The notes under the pieces were generated by a model that was not told the DNA's origin, made no database searches, and saw only the letters and a list, made by a program, of their open reading frames with translations. Of a DNA stretch of 64,000 nucleotides, positions 48,193 to 57,008 are shown piece by piece. Within the stretch, counting starts at the first letter, position 1. Each line of letters opens with the position of its first letter. This DNA is from Rhodobacter calidifons. Lineage in GTDB: Bacteria > Pseudomonadota > Alphaproteobacteria > Rhodobacterales > Rhodobacteraceae. Where the stretch lies: NCBI RefSeq assembly GCF_011174775.1, contig NZ_JAANHS010000007.1:124001-188000 (forward strand), in the 5' to 3' direction. The position numbers were made by a program, and so were the translations under genes.

Positions 48193-48801
48193 ATGCAGGC
48201 CCTTCTGGCCCTGTCGCGGGGCATCGACCGGCTGACGGAACTGATCGGCAGGGTGGTCATGTGGCTCATCCTGCTGGCCGTTCTGGTCAGCGCCGGCAAT
48301 GCGGTCAGCCGCAAGCTGTTCAACCTGTCCTCCAACGCCTGGCTGGAGCTGCAATGGTATCTCTTCGGGGCGGCCTTCATGGGGGCGGCCGCCTATACGC
48401 TGCAACAGAACGAACACATCCGCATCGACGTGTTCTACGGCAGCCGCTCGCGCCGCACGCAGCACTGGATCGACCTCTTCGGCCACATCTTCTTCCTTCT
48501 GCCCTTCGCGGCGCTGATGGTCTGGTATCTCTGGCCCTACACGATGCAGGCCTGGCGGTCCGGACAGGTCTCGACGAACGCCGGCGGCCTGATCATCTGG
48601 CCGGCGCGCGCGATCCTGCTGGCGGGTTTCGTCCTTCTGGTGGCGCAGGCCCTGTCGGAAATCGTCAAGAAGATCGCCGTCATGCGCGGGCTGATCGAGG
48701 ATCCGCATCCCTTCGTCTCGGCACAGGAACATGCCTTGCAGGAAGTGGAAGAGCTGAAGGCCGAAGTGCAGGCGCATGACACGGGCGAGGTGCGCAGATG
48801 A
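48193..48801 (+). CDS. dctQ: TRAP transporter small permease (DctQ)
   Basis: The 202-residue four-helix small subunit of a TRAP transporter. Helices are near residues 20-40, 50-70, 95-115 and 137-160. Family marks are NAVSRKLFNLSSNAWLELQW and YTLQQNEHIRIDVFY. GGGGAGG precedes the ATG. Its TGA overlaps the dctM ATG, so the two are coupled. Confidence 0.92.
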   Translation: MQALLALSRGIDRLTELIGRVVMWLILLAVLVSAGNAVSRKLFNLSSNAWLELQWYLFGAAFMGAAAYTLQQNEHIRIDVFYGSRSRRTQHWIDLFGHIFFLLPFAALMVWYLWPYTMQAWRSGQVSTNAGGLIIWPARAILLAGFVLLVAQALSEIVKKIAVMRGLIEDPHPFVSAQEHALQEVEELKAEVQAHDTGEVRR

Positions 48802-50663
48802 TCGAGATCCTCGCACACAACATGGCGCCGATCATCTTCGCCAGCCTGGTCGTCTTTCTGCTGCTGGGCTATCCGGTGGCCTTCTCGCTGGCCGCGAACG
48901 GGCTGATCTTCTTTGTCATCGGCGTCTGGCTGGCCCCCTATTCCAACGGCGAGATCACCCTGGGCTGGCCGCTTCTGGGCACCATGCCGCAGCGATTGTG
49001 GGGAATCATCTCGAACGAGACCCTGCTGGCCATTCCCTTCTTCACCTTCATGGGGATCATCCTGGAACGCAGCGGCATGGCCGAGGATCTGCTGGACACC
49101 ATCGGCCAGCTCTTCGGCCCGATCCGCGGCGGCCTGGCCTTCGCCGTCGTGCTGGTAGGCGCGCTTCTGGCGGCCACCACCGGGGTCGTCGCGGCCTCGG
49201 TCATCGCCATGGGCCTGATCTCGCTGCCGATCATGCTGCGCTACGGCTATGACCGGCGCACGGCAACCGGGGTGATCGCCGCAAGCGGCACGCTGGCGCA
49301 GATCATTCCGCCCAGCCTTGTCCTCATCATCCTGGCCGACCAGCTGGGCCGGTCGGTCGGCGACATGTATCGCGGCGCGATGGTGCCGGGGCTGGTGCTG
49401 ACCGGCATGTATCTGGGCTATGTCGCGATGACGGCGATCTTCCAGCCGCACAAGGTGCCGGCCCTTCCGCCCGAGGCACGGACGCTGGGCGGGGGCGTGA
49501 CCTCGCTGCTGGTCGCGCTGGTCGCGGGCCTGGCCATCAGCTACGGCGCGCATCTGACGTGGTATGACGCCTGGGGCTCCAACGCCGACGTGCTGGGCGC
49601 GACCATCGGGACGATCACCCTCTATCTCTATGCGCTGGCCGACCGCTACCTGGGCCTCAACCTCCTGTCGCGGCTGGCGCAGCAGGTGATCATGGTGCTC
49701 ATCCCGCCGCTGGCGCTGATCTTCCTGGTGCTGGGGACGATCTTCATCGGCCTGGCCACCCCCACCGAGGGCGGCGCGATGGGCGCGGTCGGCGCGATGA
49801 TGCTGGCCTTCGCCAAGGGACGTTTCAGCTTTCCGATGCTGCACTCGGCGCTGGCCGCCACCACGCGGCTCTCGGCCTTCGTCCTGTTCGTGCTGATCGG
49901 CGCGCGGATGTTCAGCCTTACCTTCTACGGCGTGAACGGCCATGTCTGGGTGGAAGAGCTGCTGACCGCCGTGCCGGGAGGCCAGTATGGCTTTCTCGTC
50001 GTGGTCAACCTGATCATCTTCGTCCTCGGCTTCTTCCTGGACTTCTTCGAGATCGCCTTCATTCTGATCCCGCTGCTGATCGCGCCCGCCCAGACGCTGG
50101 GGATCGACCTGATCTGGCTGGGCGTCATCATCGGGGTCAACCTTCAGACCTCGTTCCTGACCCCGCCTTTCGGCTTTGCGCTGTTCTACCTGCGGTCCGT
50201 CGCGGCGCGGGTGCCCTACCTGGACAAGGTCACCGGCAGGAAGATGGAGGGGATCCGGACCGGAGAGATCTACCAGGGCGCAATCCCCTTCATCGTCATC
50301 CAGGTGCTGATGATCTTCGCGGTGGTCTTCTTCCCGCAGATGGTCATGCATTATAAGGGTCCGGTCGTGGACCCCTCGACGATCGAGATCAGGGTGCCGG
50401 GCTTTACCCCAATGGCGCCGGGCGGCACGGGGACGGCGCCCGCCGCGCCGGGCGGCGGACTGCCAGGTCTGCCTGGCGCGCCGACCCTGGGAGCCCCGAC
50501 CCTGGGAGCCCCGACCCTGGTAGCCCCGACCCTGGGAGCCCCGACGCTGGGAGCACCCAATCTGGGCGGAACCCCGCCGGCCGACGGCGCCCCCCCGGCG
50601 CCCGGAGGCCTTCCCACCCTGCCGGGCATGCCGCAGCTGGGCGCGCCGGTCGTCAACCCCTGA
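48798..50663 (+). CDS. dctM: TRAP transporter large permease (DctM) with repeat tail
   Basis: The 621-residue transport subunit. It starts in the membrane with ASLVVFLLLGYPVAFSLA, has the DctM motifs ETLLAIPFFTFMGIILERSG and ASGTLAQIIPPSLVLIIL, and the second-half LATPTEGGAMGAVGAM and NLQTSFLTPPFGFALFYL. An extra region at about 215-280 marks the long-chain subtype found with 2-oxo acid or halogenated acid systems. After the last helix (ends about 515) comes a 90-residue Pro/Gly/Ala/Leu-rich tail with six GAPTL-type repeats, which is unusual. Confidence 0.93.
   Translation: MIEILAHNMAPIIFASLVVFLLLGYPVAFSLAANGLIFFVIGVWLAPYSNGEITLGWPLLGTMPQRLWGIISNETLLAIPFFTFMGIILERSGMAEDLLDTIGQLFGPIRGGLAFAVVLVGALLAATTGVVAASVIAMGLISLPIMLRYGYDRRTATGVIAASGTLAQIIPPSLVLIILADQLGRSVGDMYRGAMVPGLVLTGMYLGYVAMTAIFQPHKVPALPPEARTLGGGVTSLLVALVAGLAISYGAHLTWYDAWGSNADVLGATIGTITLYLYALADRYLGLNLLSRLAQQVIMVLIPPLALIFLVLGTIFIGLATPTEGGAMGAVGAMMLAFAKGRFSFPMLHSALAATTRLSAFVLFVLIGARMFSLTFYGVNGHVWVEELLTAVPGGQYGFLVVVNLIIFVLGFFLDFFEIAFILIPLLIAPAQTLGIDLIWLGVIIGVNLQTSFLTPPFGFALFYLRSVAARVPYLDKVTGRKMEGIRTGEIYQGAIPFIVIQVLMIFAVVFFPQMVMHYKGPVVDPSTIEIRVPGFTPMAPGGTGTAPAAPGGGLPGLPGAPTLGAPTLGAPTLVAPTLGAPTLGAPNLGGTPPADGAPPAPGGLPTLPGMPQLGAPVVNP
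50478..50567 (+). repeat. six 15-bp tandem repeats in the dctM 3' end
   Basis: Six consecutive units of 15 bp in frame, each near GCCCCGACCCTGGGA and encoding A-P-T-L-G/V. Unit three has GTA in place of GGA (Val), and the last unit is diverged (APNLG). The near identity of the DNA points to recent slippage growth. Confidence 0.9.
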
Positions 50664-52414: not shown

Positions 52415-53329
52415 GTGACCTATCTGCTGTTCGTCGTCGGTCTCGTCATCCTTGTGGCGGGGGGAGAGTTCCTTGTGCGCGGCGCCTCGGCCATCGCCCG
52501 CGCCTTCCACCTTTCGCCGCTCCTCATCGGGCTGACCATCGTCGGCTTCGGCACCTCGGCGCCCGAGCTGATCGTCTCGGTCCAGGCCGCGCTGTCGAAC
52601 CGCCCCGGCATCGCCATCGGCAACGTGATCGGCTCCAACATCGCGAACGTGCTCCTGATTCTGGGCGTTTCGGCGCTGATCGCGCCGCTCGTCCTGCCCG
52701 GACGCGAGCTCTGGCGCGACCTCGGCATGATGCTGGCCGCGACGGCGGCGGTCTGGGTCATGCTGATGGACGGCAGCATCTCGCGGCTGGACGGGCTGCT
52801 GCTGGTCGCGGGCCTGCTGACCTTCATCGCCATGGCCTTCGTCGCGGGCAGCGGCCACCCGCCCGACCCCGGAACCGAAAGCTTCGGCCCCGCCTGGAAA
52901 GCCTGGGCGATGACCGGCGCGGGACTTGTGGGCCTTGTGGTCGGCGCGCGCCTTCTGGTGGACAGCGCCACCATCATCGCCGAGACCTTCGGCGTCCCCG
53001 AAGCGGTGATCGGCCTGACCATCGTCGCGGTCGGCACCTCGCTGCCGGAACTGGCCACCAGCGTGATCGCGGCCTACCGCAAGCACACCGAGATCGCCGT
53101 GGGCAATGTCGTCGGCTCGAACATCTTCAACCTGCTCTCCATCCTCGGGATCACCGCTCTGATCGCCCCGATCCCGGCCGAACCGCGCTTTGCCGACACC
53201 GACATGTGGTGGGTCGCCGGCACCTCGGTCGGTCTTGCGGTGGCGGTCATGACCACAGGCCACCTGCCCCGCATCGTCGGTCTGGCCCTGCTGGCCTGTT
53301 ACGGCGGATACCTCTGGATGATGGCCTGA
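52415..53329 (+). CDS. calcium/sodium antiporter, CaCA family (YrbG type)
   Basis: A 304-residue inner-membrane exchanger with about ten helices. It has the two inverted alpha repeats of the family: GLTIVGFGTSAPELIVSVQA with GNVIGSNIANVLLILG in the first half, and GLTIVAVGTSLPELATSVIA with GNVVGSNIFNLLSILG in the second. The acidic residues in both PEL motifs bind the cation. It starts at GTG 52415 with only a weak ribosome-binding site. No operon partner. Confidence 0.93.
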   Translation: MTYLLFVVGLVILVAGGEFLVRGASAIARAFHLSPLLIGLTIVGFGTSAPELIVSVQAALSNRPGIAIGNVIGSNIANVLLILGVSALIAPLVLPGRELWRDLGMMLAATAAVWVMLMDGSISRLDGLLLVAGLLTFIAMAFVAGSGHPPDPGTESFGPAWKAWAMTGAGLVGLVVGARLLVDSATIIAETFGVPEAVIGLTIVAVGTSLPELATSVIAAYRKHTEIAVGNVVGSNIFNLLSILGITALIAPIPAEPRFADTDMWWVAGTSVGLAVAVMTTGHLPRIVGLALLACYGGYLWMMA

Positions 53330-53438
53330 ACGGGCGGCCTGCTGCCGGATGTTCCAAATCTTGCGCAGCAGGCCGTTCCTTCGCAAGAATAGTTCAAAAT
53401 CCGCGGCACAGCGCGACATTTTCGTATTGCAAATCCCG

Positions 53439-53467
53439 TTGACGCCCGGCATATCCCCGCCTACCTT
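53439..53467 (+). promoter_or_regulatory. promoter of the ilv leader and ilvI
   Basis: -35 TTGACG (53439-53444), spacer of 17 bp, -10 TACCTT (53462-53467). It predicts a start near 53474, about 22 nt before the leader peptide ATG. Confidence 0.65.
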
Positions 53468-53495
53468 ACCGACCGAAACGTCAAGGGTGGTCCGA

Positions 53496-53543
53496 ATGGC
53501 CAGACTTCTTGTCATCGTAGGAAGGAAGCGCATGGGCCGGTGA
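53496..53543 (+). CDS. ilv leader peptide MARLLVIVGRKRMGR
   Basis: A 15-codon frame between the promoter and the terminator hairpin. Codons 4-8 (53505-53519) are Leu-Leu-Val-Ile-Val, five consecutive branched-chain residues, exactly the end products of the pathway encoded next. AAGGGTGG lies upstream as ribosome-binding site. Its 3' codons form one arm of the first leader hairpin. This is the classic layout of attenuation by translation of control codons. Confidence 0.82.
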   Translation: MARLLVIVGRKRMGR

Positions 53544-53597
53544 CGGTTGACCATACAGGTTCCCATGCGCCCCCGAAGGAAACCTCGGGGGCTTTTT
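53528..53597 (+). promoter_or_regulatory. transcription attenuator upstream of ilvI
   Basis: Arm 1 GCGCATGGG (53528-53536) pairs perfectly with CCCATGCGC (53562-53570). The terminator stem GCCCCCGA (53569-53576)/TCGGGGGC (53585-53592) is followed by five T (53593-53597). AGGTTCC (53557-53563) could instead pair with GGAAACCT (53578-53585) with one bulge, breaking the terminator. The arms are visible; the exact switching path is inferred. Confidence 0.78.
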
Positions 53598-53620
53598 GTT
53601 GCGGCTGAATGGAGACGGAA

Positions 53621-55375
53621 ATGTCGAAGCAGATGACCGGTGCGAAGATGGTGGTCCAGGCGCTGAAGGACCAGGGCGTCGAGGTCGTCTTCGGCTATCC
53701 GGGCGGTGCCGTGCTTCCGATCTATGACGAGCTGTTCCTCCAGAACGACATCCGCCACATCCTGGTCCGCCACGAACAGGGCGCGGTGCACATGGCCGAA
53801 GGCTATGCCCGCAGCACCGGCAAGCCCGGCGTGGCGCTGGTCACCTCCGGCCCCGGGGCCACCAACGCCGTGACCGGCCTGACCGACGCGCTGATGGATT
53901 CGATCCCGATCGTGGTCCTGACCGGCCAGGTCCCGACCTTCATGATCGGCACCGACGGCTTCCAGGAGGCCGATACCGTCGGCATCACCCGGCCCTGCAC
54001 CAAGATGAACTGGCTGGTAAAGGACACCGCGAAACTCAGCGACATCATCCACCAGGCCTTCCACGTCGCCACCCACGGCCGCCCCGGCCCGGTGCTGATC
54101 GACATTCCCAAGGACGTGCAATTCGCCACCGCCGACTACACGCCGGTCGAAAAGGCCCGCGTCAGCCACTACCAGCCCCGCACCGAGGGCGACCCGGCCC
54201 AGATCGCCCGCCTGGTCGAGCTGATGGAAACCGCCGAACGCCCGATCCTCTACACCGGCGGCGGCGTCATCAACTCTGGCCCCCGCGCCAGCCAGCTGCT
54301 GCGCGAACTGGCAGCCGAGACCGGCTTTCCGGTCACCTCCACCCTGATGGGCCTTGGCGCCTATCCGGCCTCGGGCAGGAACTGGATCGGCATGCTGGGG
54401 ATGCACGGGCTTTACGAGGCCAACCTCGCCATGCACGGCTGCGACCTGATGATCAACATCGGCGCCCGCTTCGACGACCGCATCACCGGCCGCGTCAAGG
54501 ACTTCTCGCCGCGGTCCAGGAAGGCCCACATCGACATCGACCCCTCGTCGATCAACAAGGTCATCCATGTGGATGTGCCGATCGTCGGCGACGTGACGAA
54601 GGTGCTGGAGGAACTCCTGCGCCAATGGCGCGCGCGCGGCAGCCGCACCGACAAGGGGGGGCTCGCCAAATGGTGGAAGCAGATCGACGAATGGCGCGCG
54701 GTGAAGTGCCTCGCCTACAAGCCCTCGACCACCACGATCAAGCCGCAATACGCGCTGGAACGGCTCGAGGCGCTGACCAAGGGCATGGACCGCTACATCT
54801 GCACCGAGGTCGGCCAGCACCAGATGTGGGCCGCGCAGTTCCTGGGCTTCGAGGACCCGAACCGCTGGATGACCTCCGGTGGCCTCGGCACCATGGGCTA
54901 TGGCCTGCCCGCCTCGATCGGCGTGCAGATCGCCCACCCCAAGGCGCTGGTCATCAACGTCGCCGGAGAGGCCTCCTGGCTGATGAACATGCAGGAAATG
55001 GGCACCGCGATGCAGTTCCGCGCGCCGGTCAAGCAGTTCATCCTGAACAACGAACGCCTCGGCATGGTCCGCCAGTGGCAAGAGCTTCTCCATGGCGAAC
55101 GCTATTCCTCCAGCTGGTCGGAAGCGCTCCCCGATTTCGTGAAGCTGGCCGAGGCTTTCGGCTGCAAGGGCATCCAGTGCAAGGATCCGAACGACCTCGA
55201 CGACGCGATCATGGAGATGATCCGCTACGACGGCCCGGTGATCTTCGACTGCCTGGTGGAAAAGCACGAGAACTGCTTCCCGATGATCCCCTCGGGCAAG
55301 CCGCACAACGAGATGCTGCTGGGCGAGGCCGAAACCCAGGGCGTCATCGGCGCGAAGGGGGCGGTGCTGGTCTGA
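53621..55375 (+). CDS. ilvI: acetolactate synthase large subunit
   Basis: Thiamine-diphosphate enzyme making acetolactate or acetohydroxybutyrate, the first common step to valine, leucine and isoleucine. The 584 residues have the catalytic Glu region VRHEQGAVHMAEGYAR, the FAD/substrate region GFQEADTVGITRPCTK, and the ThDP motif GEASWLMNMQEM to LNNERLGMVRQW. The usual Asp of the G-D motif is Glu450 here. ATG 53621 is preferred over 53609, as GGAG precedes it by 6 nt. Controlled by the leader attenuator. Confidence 0.96.
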   Translation: MSKQMTGAKMVVQALKDQGVEVVFGYPGGAVLPIYDELFLQNDIRHILVRHEQGAVHMAEGYARSTGKPGVALVTSGPGATNAVTGLTDALMDSIPIVVLTGQVPTFMIGTDGFQEADTVGITRPCTKMNWLVKDTAKLSDIIHQAFHVATHGRPGPVLIDIPKDVQFATADYTPVEKARVSHYQPRTEGDPAQIARLVELMETAERPILYTGGGVINSGPRASQLLRELAAETGFPVTSTLMGLGAYPASGRNWIGMLGMHGLYEANLAMHGCDLMINIGARFDDRITGRVKDFSPRSRKAHIDIDPSSINKVIHVDVPIVGDVTKVLEELLRQWRARGSRTDKGGLAKWWKQIDEWRAVKCLAYKPSTTTIKPQYALERLEALTKGMDRYICTEVGQHQMWAAQFLGFEDPNRWMTSGGLGTMGYGLPASIGVQIAHPKALVINVAGEASWLMNMQEMGTAMQFRAPVKQFILNNERLGMVRQWQELLHGERYSSSWSEALPDFVKLAEAFGCKGIQCKDPNDLDDAIMEMIRYDGPVIFDCLVEKHENCFPMIPSGKPHNEMLLGEAETQGVIGAKGAVLV

Positions 55376-55397: not shown

Positions 55398-56414
55398 GTG
55401 CCCGACATGTCGATGACCGCCGAGGCCCCTGCCCGTCCTGGTTCCCGCGACCTGTCGCTGGACGTCGCCAAGGGCATCGGCATCATCCTCCTGGTGATCG
55501 GCCACGCCTGGCGCGGGCTGGACTCGGCGGGCATGATCGGCAACCCGGACCTTTTCCGGCTGATCGACCGGCTGATCTACAACTTCCACATGCCGCTGTT
55601 CTTCCTCTTGTCCGGCATGACTTTCCAGGCCTGGGCGCTCCGCCGTCCGCTGGGCGAGGCCGCGGCCAGCCGGTTCACCCGCCTGATCTGGCCGCTGATC
55701 CTGTGGACCTATCTCTTCGCCGCCGCCCGTCTGGCCGCCGGAGATGCCGCCAACACCCAGGTCGGCGGCTGGCAGAGCCTCGCCTTCCTCCCCCTGCCGC
55801 CGCGCGACCATTTCTGGTTTCTCTGGGCGCTCTTCCTGCAACATCTGGCCGTCCTCGGCCTGATCCGGCTGGTGACCGGCCCGCTTTCGGCCCCGGCCTG
55901 GGCCCTGCTGGCGGCCGTGGCCGTCCTGGCCTCCAGCCTGACACCCGTCGGCCTGAACGCCTGGACCCACGGCGCCCTGACCTATGCCGGGGCCTTCCTT
56001 GCCGGCCTCGCCCTTGGCCAGAGGCCCTGGCGCCCGACGGGTGCCGCCGCGCCGGGCCTTGCCGTGCTGGCCTTCGTGGGCCTGCAAGTGCTCAGCTTCC
56101 AGCTGCCGCCGACGCTCATGACAGCGCAGCTTCTGGGCATCGCGCTGTCGCTTGCGGCGCTGGTGATGGTTCAGGCACTGACCGCAGCCCCGGTCACAGC
56201 GGCCCCGCGGCTTCTGGCCTGGCTCGGCGTCTCCTCGATGGGGATCTACCTTGCGCACACGATCTTCTCTGCCGGAACCCGCGCCGTCCTCGGCCGGCTG
56301 ACCCAGGACCTCGCGCTGCACATGGTCGCCGGAACCCTGGCCGGGATCATCGGCCCGCTCATCCTCTACGCCCTCATCCGCCGGGTGGGCCGCCCCGCCT
56401 GGATCGGCTTCTAG
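55398..56414 (+). CDS. acyltransferase-3-like membrane protein between ilvI and ilvH
   Basis: A membrane acyltransferase (OafA/fucose 4-O-acetylase group) of up to 338 residues with about ten helices. It opens with RDLSLDVAKGIGIILLVIGH, where the D-x-x-K-G and the His match the catalytic start of the family, and has NFHMPLFFLLSGMTFQAW. It ends MGIYLAHTIFSAG. Starts at GTG 55398, ATG 55407 or ATG 55413 are all possible; none has a strong ribosome-binding site. It lies 22 bp after ilvI and 33 bp before ilvH, so it must be cotranscribed with them. Target unknown. Confidence 0.8.
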   Translation: MPDMSMTAEAPARPGSRDLSLDVAKGIGIILLVIGHAWRGLDSAGMIGNPDLFRLIDRLIYNFHMPLFFLLSGMTFQAWALRRPLGEAAASRFTRLIWPLILWTYLFAAARLAAGDAANTQVGGWQSLAFLPLPPRDHFWFLWALFLQHLAVLGLIRLVTGPLSAPAWALLAAVAVLASSLTPVGLNAWTHGALTYAGAFLAGLALGQRPWRPTGAAAPGLAVLAFVGLQVLSFQLPPTLMTAQLLGIALSLAALVMVQALTAAPVTAAPRLLAWLGVSSMGIYLAHTIFSAGTRAVLGRLTQDLALHMVAGTLAGIIGPLILYALIRRVGRPAWIGF

Positions 56415-56447: not shown

Positions 56448-57008
56448 ATGTCCGCACTGAACATCAAGAAGGGCTCTTCCAGCCATTCCGCCTATGACCT
56501 GCGCGCCACCAATTCCGAGGTCGAGGAGAGCCACACCCTGGCGGTGATCGTGGAAAACGAACCCGGCGTGCTGGCCCGCGTGATCGGCCTGTTCTCGGGC
56601 CGCGGCTACAACATCGACAGCCTGACCGTGGCCGAGGTGGACCACACCGGCCACCGCTCGCGCATCACCATCGTCACCCGCGGCACACCGGCGGTGATCG
56701 ACCAGATCGAGGCGCAACTGTCGCGCATGGTCCCGGTCCACGCCGTCCACGACCTGACCGCCGAAGGCCCCTCGGTCCAGCGCGAACTGGCGCTGGTCAA
56801 GGTGAAGGGCAAGGGCGAACACCGGATCGAGGCCCTGCGCCTGGCCGAGATCTTCCGCGCCAATGTCGTCGATTCCACGCTGGAAAGCTTTGTCTTCGAA
56901 ATGACCGGCACGCCGGAAAAGATCGACGCCTTCGCCGATCTGATGCGTCCCCTGGGCCTGATCGAGATCGCCCGCACCGGCGTCGCCGGCCTCAAGCGCG
57001 GGGTCTGA
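56448..57008 (+). CDS. ilvH: acetolactate synthase regulatory small subunit
   Basis: The 186-residue small subunit activates IlvI and gives feedback inhibition by valine. An N-terminal ACT domain reads HTLAVIVENEPGVLARVIGL then FSGRGYNIDSLTVAEVD, with the conserved effector-site Gly and Asn. The C-terminal domain contains RELALVKVKG and TGTPEKIDAFADLMRPLG. GGTAGGA precedes the ATG. It is the last gene of the ilv unit, followed by a long imperfect hairpin. Confidence 0.96.
   Translation: MSALNIKKGSSSHSAYDLRATNSEVEESHTLAVIVENEPGVLARVIGLFSGRGYNIDSLTVAEVDHTGHRSRITIVTRGTPAVIDQIEAQLSRMVPVHAVHDLTAEGPSVQRELALVKVKGKGEHRIEALRLAEIFRANVVDSTLESFVFEMTGTPEKIDAFADLMRPLGLIEIARTGVAGLKRGV

Follow-up and report, generated by a model that had tools for sequence, protein, structure and literature searches.

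Does the short region directly upstream of ilvI in the window (the whole 64-kb stretch of DNA analysed here) encode a switch for branched-chain amino acid (BCAA) synthesis, and does the same switch occur before other genes? A 15-codon mini-gene and two overlapping hairpins lie there, apparently a switch for making leucine, isoleucine and valine when these run short. Vitreschak (FEMS, 2004) reportedly predicted BCAA-dependent attenuators before alphaproteobacterial ilvIH, and the leaders of Escherichia coli follow a classical alternating-hairpin series. BCAA leader attenuation is itself already known and classical: leader peptides with BCAA codons control a terminator at E. coli ilvGMEDA, ilvBN and leu (PMC6123439; sources here and below are cited from extracts). 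An ilvB leader peptide in Alphaproteobacteria is mentioned as previously described (PMC1273637), and the Caulobacter crescentus ilv leader combines tandem Ile and Val codons with a rho-independent terminator (PMC4117421, citing Tarleton 1994). The Caulobacter leader also belongs to an alphaproteobacterial acetolactate synthase operon and is likened to the present one by its description (PMC4117421). For ilvI itself, the outcome of our analysis is expected biology.

The original prediction, a BCAA leader-peptide attenuator before ilvI, was largely borne out at the locus (Table 1). Its 15-codon peptide with Leu-Leu-Val-Ile-Val was read in the ORF, its perfect 9-bp hairpin (S1) has arms that are exact reverse complements, the last peptide codons do form one hairpin arm, and a terminator scanner matched the terminator with five T residues. 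The claim of a good promoter stood in part: a strict sigma-70 scan of the locus found no promoter, but a motif of the form TTGAC-N15..19-TAnnn[TC] lies upstream of 86 of 92 distinct leaders from relatives (defined below), with a 17-nt spacer in 84 of these 86. In the window, 28 nt separate the end of the −10 element from the start of the leader ORF, and 83 of the 92 leaders have a Shine–Dalgarno-like 4-mer upstream. As for the claimed pairing that competes with the terminator, on our reading the competitor would be S1 itself, through the shared G53569-C53570.

Table 1 Features of the ilvI leader locus, and sets of ilvI upstream loci in genomes outside the model matches
Feature	Position or loci	Strand	Description
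Promoter	53439..53467	+	−35 TTGACG 53439-53444; 17-nt spacer; −10 TACCTT 53462-53467
Leader peptide ORF MARLLVIVGRKRMGR	53496..53543	+	ATG 53496, TGA 53541-53543; 15 codons
Control codons CTT CTT GTC ATC GTA (Leu-Leu-Val-Ile-Val)	53505..53519	+	Codons 4-8
S1 5′ arm GCGCATGGG	53528..53536	+	Formed by the final codons of the peptide; begins 8 nt downstream of the control codons
Hairpin P2, CCG-GUGA-CGG	53537..53546	+	Stop codon (TGA) within loop
S1 3′ arm CCCATGCGC	53562..53570	+	Exact reverse complement of the 5′ arm (9 bp); last two bases also terminator base
Intrinsic terminator GCCCCCGA..TCGGGGGC	53569..53597	+	Stem 53569-53592, TTTTT 53593-53597; terminator scanner match
ilvI	53621..55375	+	Acetolactate synthase large subunit; gene controlled in the proposed model
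Acyltransferase-3 family gene	55398..56414	+	Between ilvI and ilvH
ilvH	56448..57008	+	Acetolactate synthase small subunit; Pfam ALS_ss_C and ACT
Divergent BCAA ORF and terminator	L218, L219, L220, L223, L227, L228, L234		By eye
Genus g36, no clear leader upstream of ilvI	L221, L222, L225, L226, L229-L233, L235-L237		

A chance origin of the leader was rejected on Markov-1 simulations, in which one 64-kb strand held a mean of 0.26 short ORFs with at least five consecutive I/L/V residues and none of 100 simulations placed a terminator after such an ORF. The two strands of the window together hold two such ORFs, and a terminator follows the ilvI leader ORF only. The folding energy of the single leader is ordinary (z −1.27; 24 of 200 shuffles fold equally well), so the case for the leader rests on conservation. 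The window's own genome contains one strong match and no further copy; its next two matches (20.6 bits) and four weaker ones lacked a BCAA leader on reading. Downstream, ilvH is possibly on the same transcript as ilvI, and the acyltransferase-3 family gene may be read from that attenuated transcript as well.

We assembled 111 ilvI loci, comprising the best 80 named loci listed and a further 31 taken from relatives and from the Tabrizicola-like Rhodobacteraceae genome that holds the window, with some from the same species; the nearest named IlvI among the best 80 loci listed is that of Tabrizicola thermarum (97%). Upstream of ilvI, 102 of the 111 have a leader ORF of 8-30 codons that ends in a [MVIL]Gx tail and holds at least three I/L/V within 7 residues, and setting aside L093 (no T4 run) and nine duplicates left the 92 distinct leaders. 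The peptide is 15 residues long in 83 of them and ends in RMGR in 85, and is thus shorter than the E. coli leaders (28-32 residues; PMC6123439), as originally noted. Promoter, control codons, compensated stem and terminator recur across relatives in the same order, which supports the attenuator claim. Nine ilvI loci lack an ORF of this description: L047, L056 and L059 match the covariance model; L072 and L111 have, by eye, a BCAA ORF and terminator but a different stem; and L005, L006, L062 and L078 yielded no leader upstream of ilvI by ORF scan and by eye, readings by eye covering part of the rows. Two other ilvI upstream regions, L168 and L180, contain BCAA-containing short ORFs (MTTQLVLIRQPLSGRD and MTSAIVVVTTAPGPGRL) followed by different sequence.

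The stems are maintained as pairings. In set A2, 90 distinct stem-terminator sequences left after two of the 92 were dropped as identical in this part, no member breaks any of the eight S1 pairs in columns 4-11, and all nine departures are G-U. Four members lose S1 pair 12-42, and the outer S1 pair 3-53 is present in just 39 of the 90; P2 pairing is lost in 9 of its 270 cells. RNAalifold, unaided, recovered S1 together with a shortened terminator. Set A4 is wider, with 60 members including leaders from before a transporter gene (below) and excluding four antisense rows of set A3. Changes on both sides occurred in 11 of its 13 S1/P2 pairs, among them each of the three P2 pairs, compared with 3.5 ± 1.2 after shuffling (0 of 500) and three to five pairs in slid controls. 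Proposed as a check on relatives, conservation of Leu/Val/Ile codons (an I/L/V-rich ORF in 102 of 111 loci) and compensatory stem change were both found, and the refuting outcome, codons and stems that are not conserved, did not occur. A4 was fitted to the covariance model, so pairing was also checked by a separate swap: for the 21 of 60 members whose 5′ arm is uncommon, a member's own 3′ region paired better than swapped ones (18.6 versus 16.2 ± 0.65; 0 of 1,000). By eye, P2 is rebuilt with different sequence in L152, L164, L165, L135 and L159, the stop codon falling inside or next to the loop. Searches with Rfam 15 covariance models found no match at E values up to 1 in window positions 52900-53900, and none reaching the gathering score in the 10 leader loci searched; the RNA element has good comparative support and no Rfam match.

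Codon choice in the leaders departs strongly from that in genes. Comparing the 92 leaders with eight window genes, GTA makes up 59% versus 1.1% of Val codons, CTT 62% versus 9.6% and CTA 13% versus 0.2% of Leu codons, and ATT 50% versus 3% of Ile codons. Of the five control codons in the window, the two CTT and the GTA are rare; GTC and ATC are not. Rare codons would generally make a leader more sensitive to tRNA charging. At the other end of the peptide, the last four codons (S1 arm and P2) show 20 changes in paired columns of A2 (8 in S1, 12 in P2), of which 13 are silent and 7 are not, and the pair is kept in 20 of 20; three more changes fall in an unpaired column. The three residues preceding the conserved tail take 58 forms in 92 leaders. 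The tail therefore looks constrained as RNA; conservation as peptide was rejected, as the changes track pairing and not codon meaning.

Between the last control codon and S1 lie 8 nt in 69 of the 92 leaders; the remaining leaders have 11-20 nt. Across 126 distinct leaders (A2, A4 and L182-L186, with S1 ends sought no more than a few bases away from where the terminator starts), S1 and the terminator base overlap by at least 2 nt in 124: 2 nt in 60, 3 nt in 48 and 4-6 nt in 16. The overlap is only 1 nt in L155 and 0 nt in L156. Two divergent leaders, L111 upstream of ilvI and L211 upstream of the transporter, were judged by eye to have S1-like stems lying clear of the terminator, and these count against a universal overlap mechanism.

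From these parts, with their order, spacing, compensatory pairing, overlap and codon bias, we infer stalling, antitermination by S1, termination in excess and untranslated read-through. Transcription would start about 20 nt upstream of the 15-codon ORF. When charged tRNA is short, a ribosome would stall at the control codons, upstream of the S1 5′ arm, leaving that arm free or nearly so to pair with CCCATGCGC and prevent termination. When charged tRNA is ample, a ribosome at the stop codon would cover the 5′ arm and the terminator would form; an untranslated leader would read through by default. S1 should be the antiterminator because starvation should raise a biosynthetic gene.

Constrained equilibrium folding of the 92 leaders was scored by how probable the two outer terminator pairs are; the shift has the expected direction but gives a switch no more than partial support. 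The mean probability was 0.94 with a ribosome at the stop codon. With the ribosome at the last or first control codon it was 0.84 or 0.64, respectively, and without a ribosome 0.69; it was higher at the stop than at the first control codon in 72 of 92 leaders and lower in one. For a stall at the last control codon, the modelled switch is nearly absent. The window's own leader gave 1.00 at the stop, 0.97 at the last control codon, 0.67 at the first and 0.90 without a ribosome, figures that lower the odds of the attenuator reading. Taking these together with the comparative evidence, we consider it likely that the element is a ribosome-controlled transcription attenuator for ilvI in which S1 serves as antiterminator.

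The closest known mechanism is the ‘fast’ attenuator of Corynebacterium glutamicum ilvBNC, where a boundary GCC common to antiterminator and terminator is proposed to decide the state, with mutational support (PMC11857589). That leader likewise encodes a 15-residue peptide with conserved CUU and GUA control codons, and its antiterminator and terminator share a boundary of the GC or GCC kind also found here (PMC11857589). It differs in belonging to another phylum, in its 292-bp region, in a start codon one nucleotide from +1 and in a separate anti-antiterminator, H1, covering the start region (PMC11857589), whereas in the present element the tail of the peptide supplies the proposed antiterminator arm, and a nested hairpin encloses the stop codon.

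Other accounts of the ilvI leader make different use of the same parts. In a classical four-part attenuator, the S1 5′ arm would first pair with CCAU (53551-53554) as a pause hairpin, termination would be favoured in an untranslated leader, and S1 would form only after a ribosome opened that hairpin. Many leaders have CCAU or a comparable motif after P2, individual leaders seem to show compensation (CUGG/CCAG in L131, CGGG/CCCG in L134 and L184, GAGG/CCUC in L154), and start-codon loss in the C. glutamicum leader is described as lowering expression by 80% (PMC11857589). A swap test on 27 unusual arms was nevertheless not significant (own 8.76 versus 8.48 ± 0.34, with 203 of 1,000 as high, on a set with repeated leaders); we rejected the CCAU pairing as a proven helix and hold the four-part scheme to be unlikely. 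The leader could instead work chiefly in trans, through a small RNA or a peptide, like rnTrpL/peTrpL in Sinorhizobium, an alphaproteobacterial precedent (PMC7298713, PMC10117765), and its RNA sequence is unusually conserved. Against this, tail changes keep pairing whether silent or not, the three residues before the tail take the many forms counted above, and the real matches that we read sit in cis, before ilvI or one transporter type, so a mainly trans role seems very improbable. The ordinary single-sequence fold would suit a constitutive terminator behind a chance ORF, with no regulation at all; conservation, covariation and codon bias speak so strongly against this that we give it almost no weight.

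The element is widespread in Rhodobacterales. Model R1 matched 264 of 292 genomes at E 0.01 or better, covering 107 of 112 genera; the 264 include at least one chance hit (L163 in G328), and position before ilvI was checked in the fetched loci. All 10 strong matches fetched (L120-L129) lie before ilvI, whereas the 27 second or weak matches fetched comprise 13 before ilvI, 10 before a transporter gene (L146 placed there by tblastn) and four due to chance. Among the 19 genomes with two matches, the second was read in 12 (all except G133, G136, G151, G163, G179, G268 and G313); it precedes the transporter gene in nine and is a chance match in three (L160, L161 and L166). Eight weak matches in all were judged chance (L160, L161, L166, L163 and L136-L139). 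Examination of 20 of the 28 non-matching Rhodobacterales genomes found, by eye, a divergent BCAA ORF and terminator in seven and no convincing leader before ilvI in 13, so the switch is dispensable. Genus g36 contributed 12 genomes to these 20, and all 12 lack a clear leader upstream of ilvI, as if the attenuator had been lost in that genus.

Beyond this order, model R2 was applied to 385 class-level genomes and reached at least 41 bits in 16, the next value being 27 bits; its E-values were too generous, so only matches of at least 41 bits were used. Six weak class matches (L187, L188, L189, L191, L194 and L195) were unrelated on reading, and the chance match L160 reaches 32.5 bits with R2. 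A 249-genome phylum sample gave no match above 27.5 bits outside Alphaproteobacteria. By reading and ORF scan, no copy of the element was found in 14 ilvI upstream regions, 13 of them from other alphaproteobacterial families and one that of a second ilvI of G012.

The 16 genomes with strong R2 matches are five Rhodobacterales and eleven from 10 other families, and in 11 of these 11 the element lies before a gene of the major facilitator superfamily (MFS). With ten leaders from Rhodobacteraceae, these make up the 21 non-ilvI leaders kept. One protein type is encoded downstream in 21 of 21 (tblastn, 50-97% identity to the L142 protein, itself apart), and the TIGR00710 Bcr/CflA score was just above cut-off in both transporter proteins tested. 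Searching from the gene side gave 14 transporter homologues in 13 of 190 genomes, eight of them at 46% identity or higher; among these eight, a strong element precedes four (L204, L205, L207 and L210, whose genomes are all among the eleven outside Rhodobacterales), a divergent one precedes L211 and none precedes three. No leader was found upstream of the six less similar homologues, including the nearest in the window's genome (L213). The link between element and transporter, a second target that the original prediction did not include, is frequent, not universal.

Val is the commonest residue in the transporter leaders, at 65 of 248 between start and tail, and GTA accounts for 20 of these 65 Val codons versus 3.8% in the genes. 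Taken together, I/L/V are modestly enriched, chiefly through Val (37% in the leaders versus 28% in the transporter proteins), and L134 and L147 each carry just two I/L/V ahead of the tail. Elsewhere in Alphaproteobacteria this element, encoding Val-rich peptides, probably controls the Bcr/CflA-type transporter, and the simplest reading of the codons is that valyl-tRNA would be sensed. In a reading limited to the transporter copies, an efflux pump might be induced when an antibiotic or a tRNA-synthetase inhibitor, in place of BCAA shortage, stalls the ribosome. The Bcr/CflA family is an efflux family, leader-controlled efflux genes such as mef/mel are known (PMC4335068), and the small I/L/V excess fits such a signal; the abundance of Val and of GTA points instead to Val-tRNA sensing, and we find induction by inhibitors rather doubtful.

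The elements before both genes would follow one fixed plan: Val/Ile/Leu codons, a short gap, a peptide-tail arm, a stop-codon hairpin and an arm sharing the terminator base. We tentatively raise the possibility, which we rate below an even chance, that this single element defines a small alphaproteobacterial regulon, controlling ilvI in Rhodobacterales and the Bcr/CflA-type transporter in at least 11 families, with read-through as the untranslated default (the reverse of trp-type attenuators) and with the transporter taking part in BCAA, chiefly valine, physiology. A literature search on alphaproteobacterial or Rhodobacter ilvI leaders and on leader attenuation of Bcr/CflA genes returned nothing on a Rhodobacterales or transporter element among the matches listed; subscription journals were mostly outside its scope, so this is no proof of novelty.

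What the element offers is a very small overlap switch with a testable opposite default, and an efflux-type transporter tied to valine or BCAA supply is a functional clue beyond homology alone. It is the link to the transporter and the default predicted for an untranslated leader that deserve testing. Elsewhere in the window, an ORF at 48798-50663 (+), which we take to resemble a TRAP transporter large subunit, carries at its end a proline-rich tail of APTLG-like repeats.
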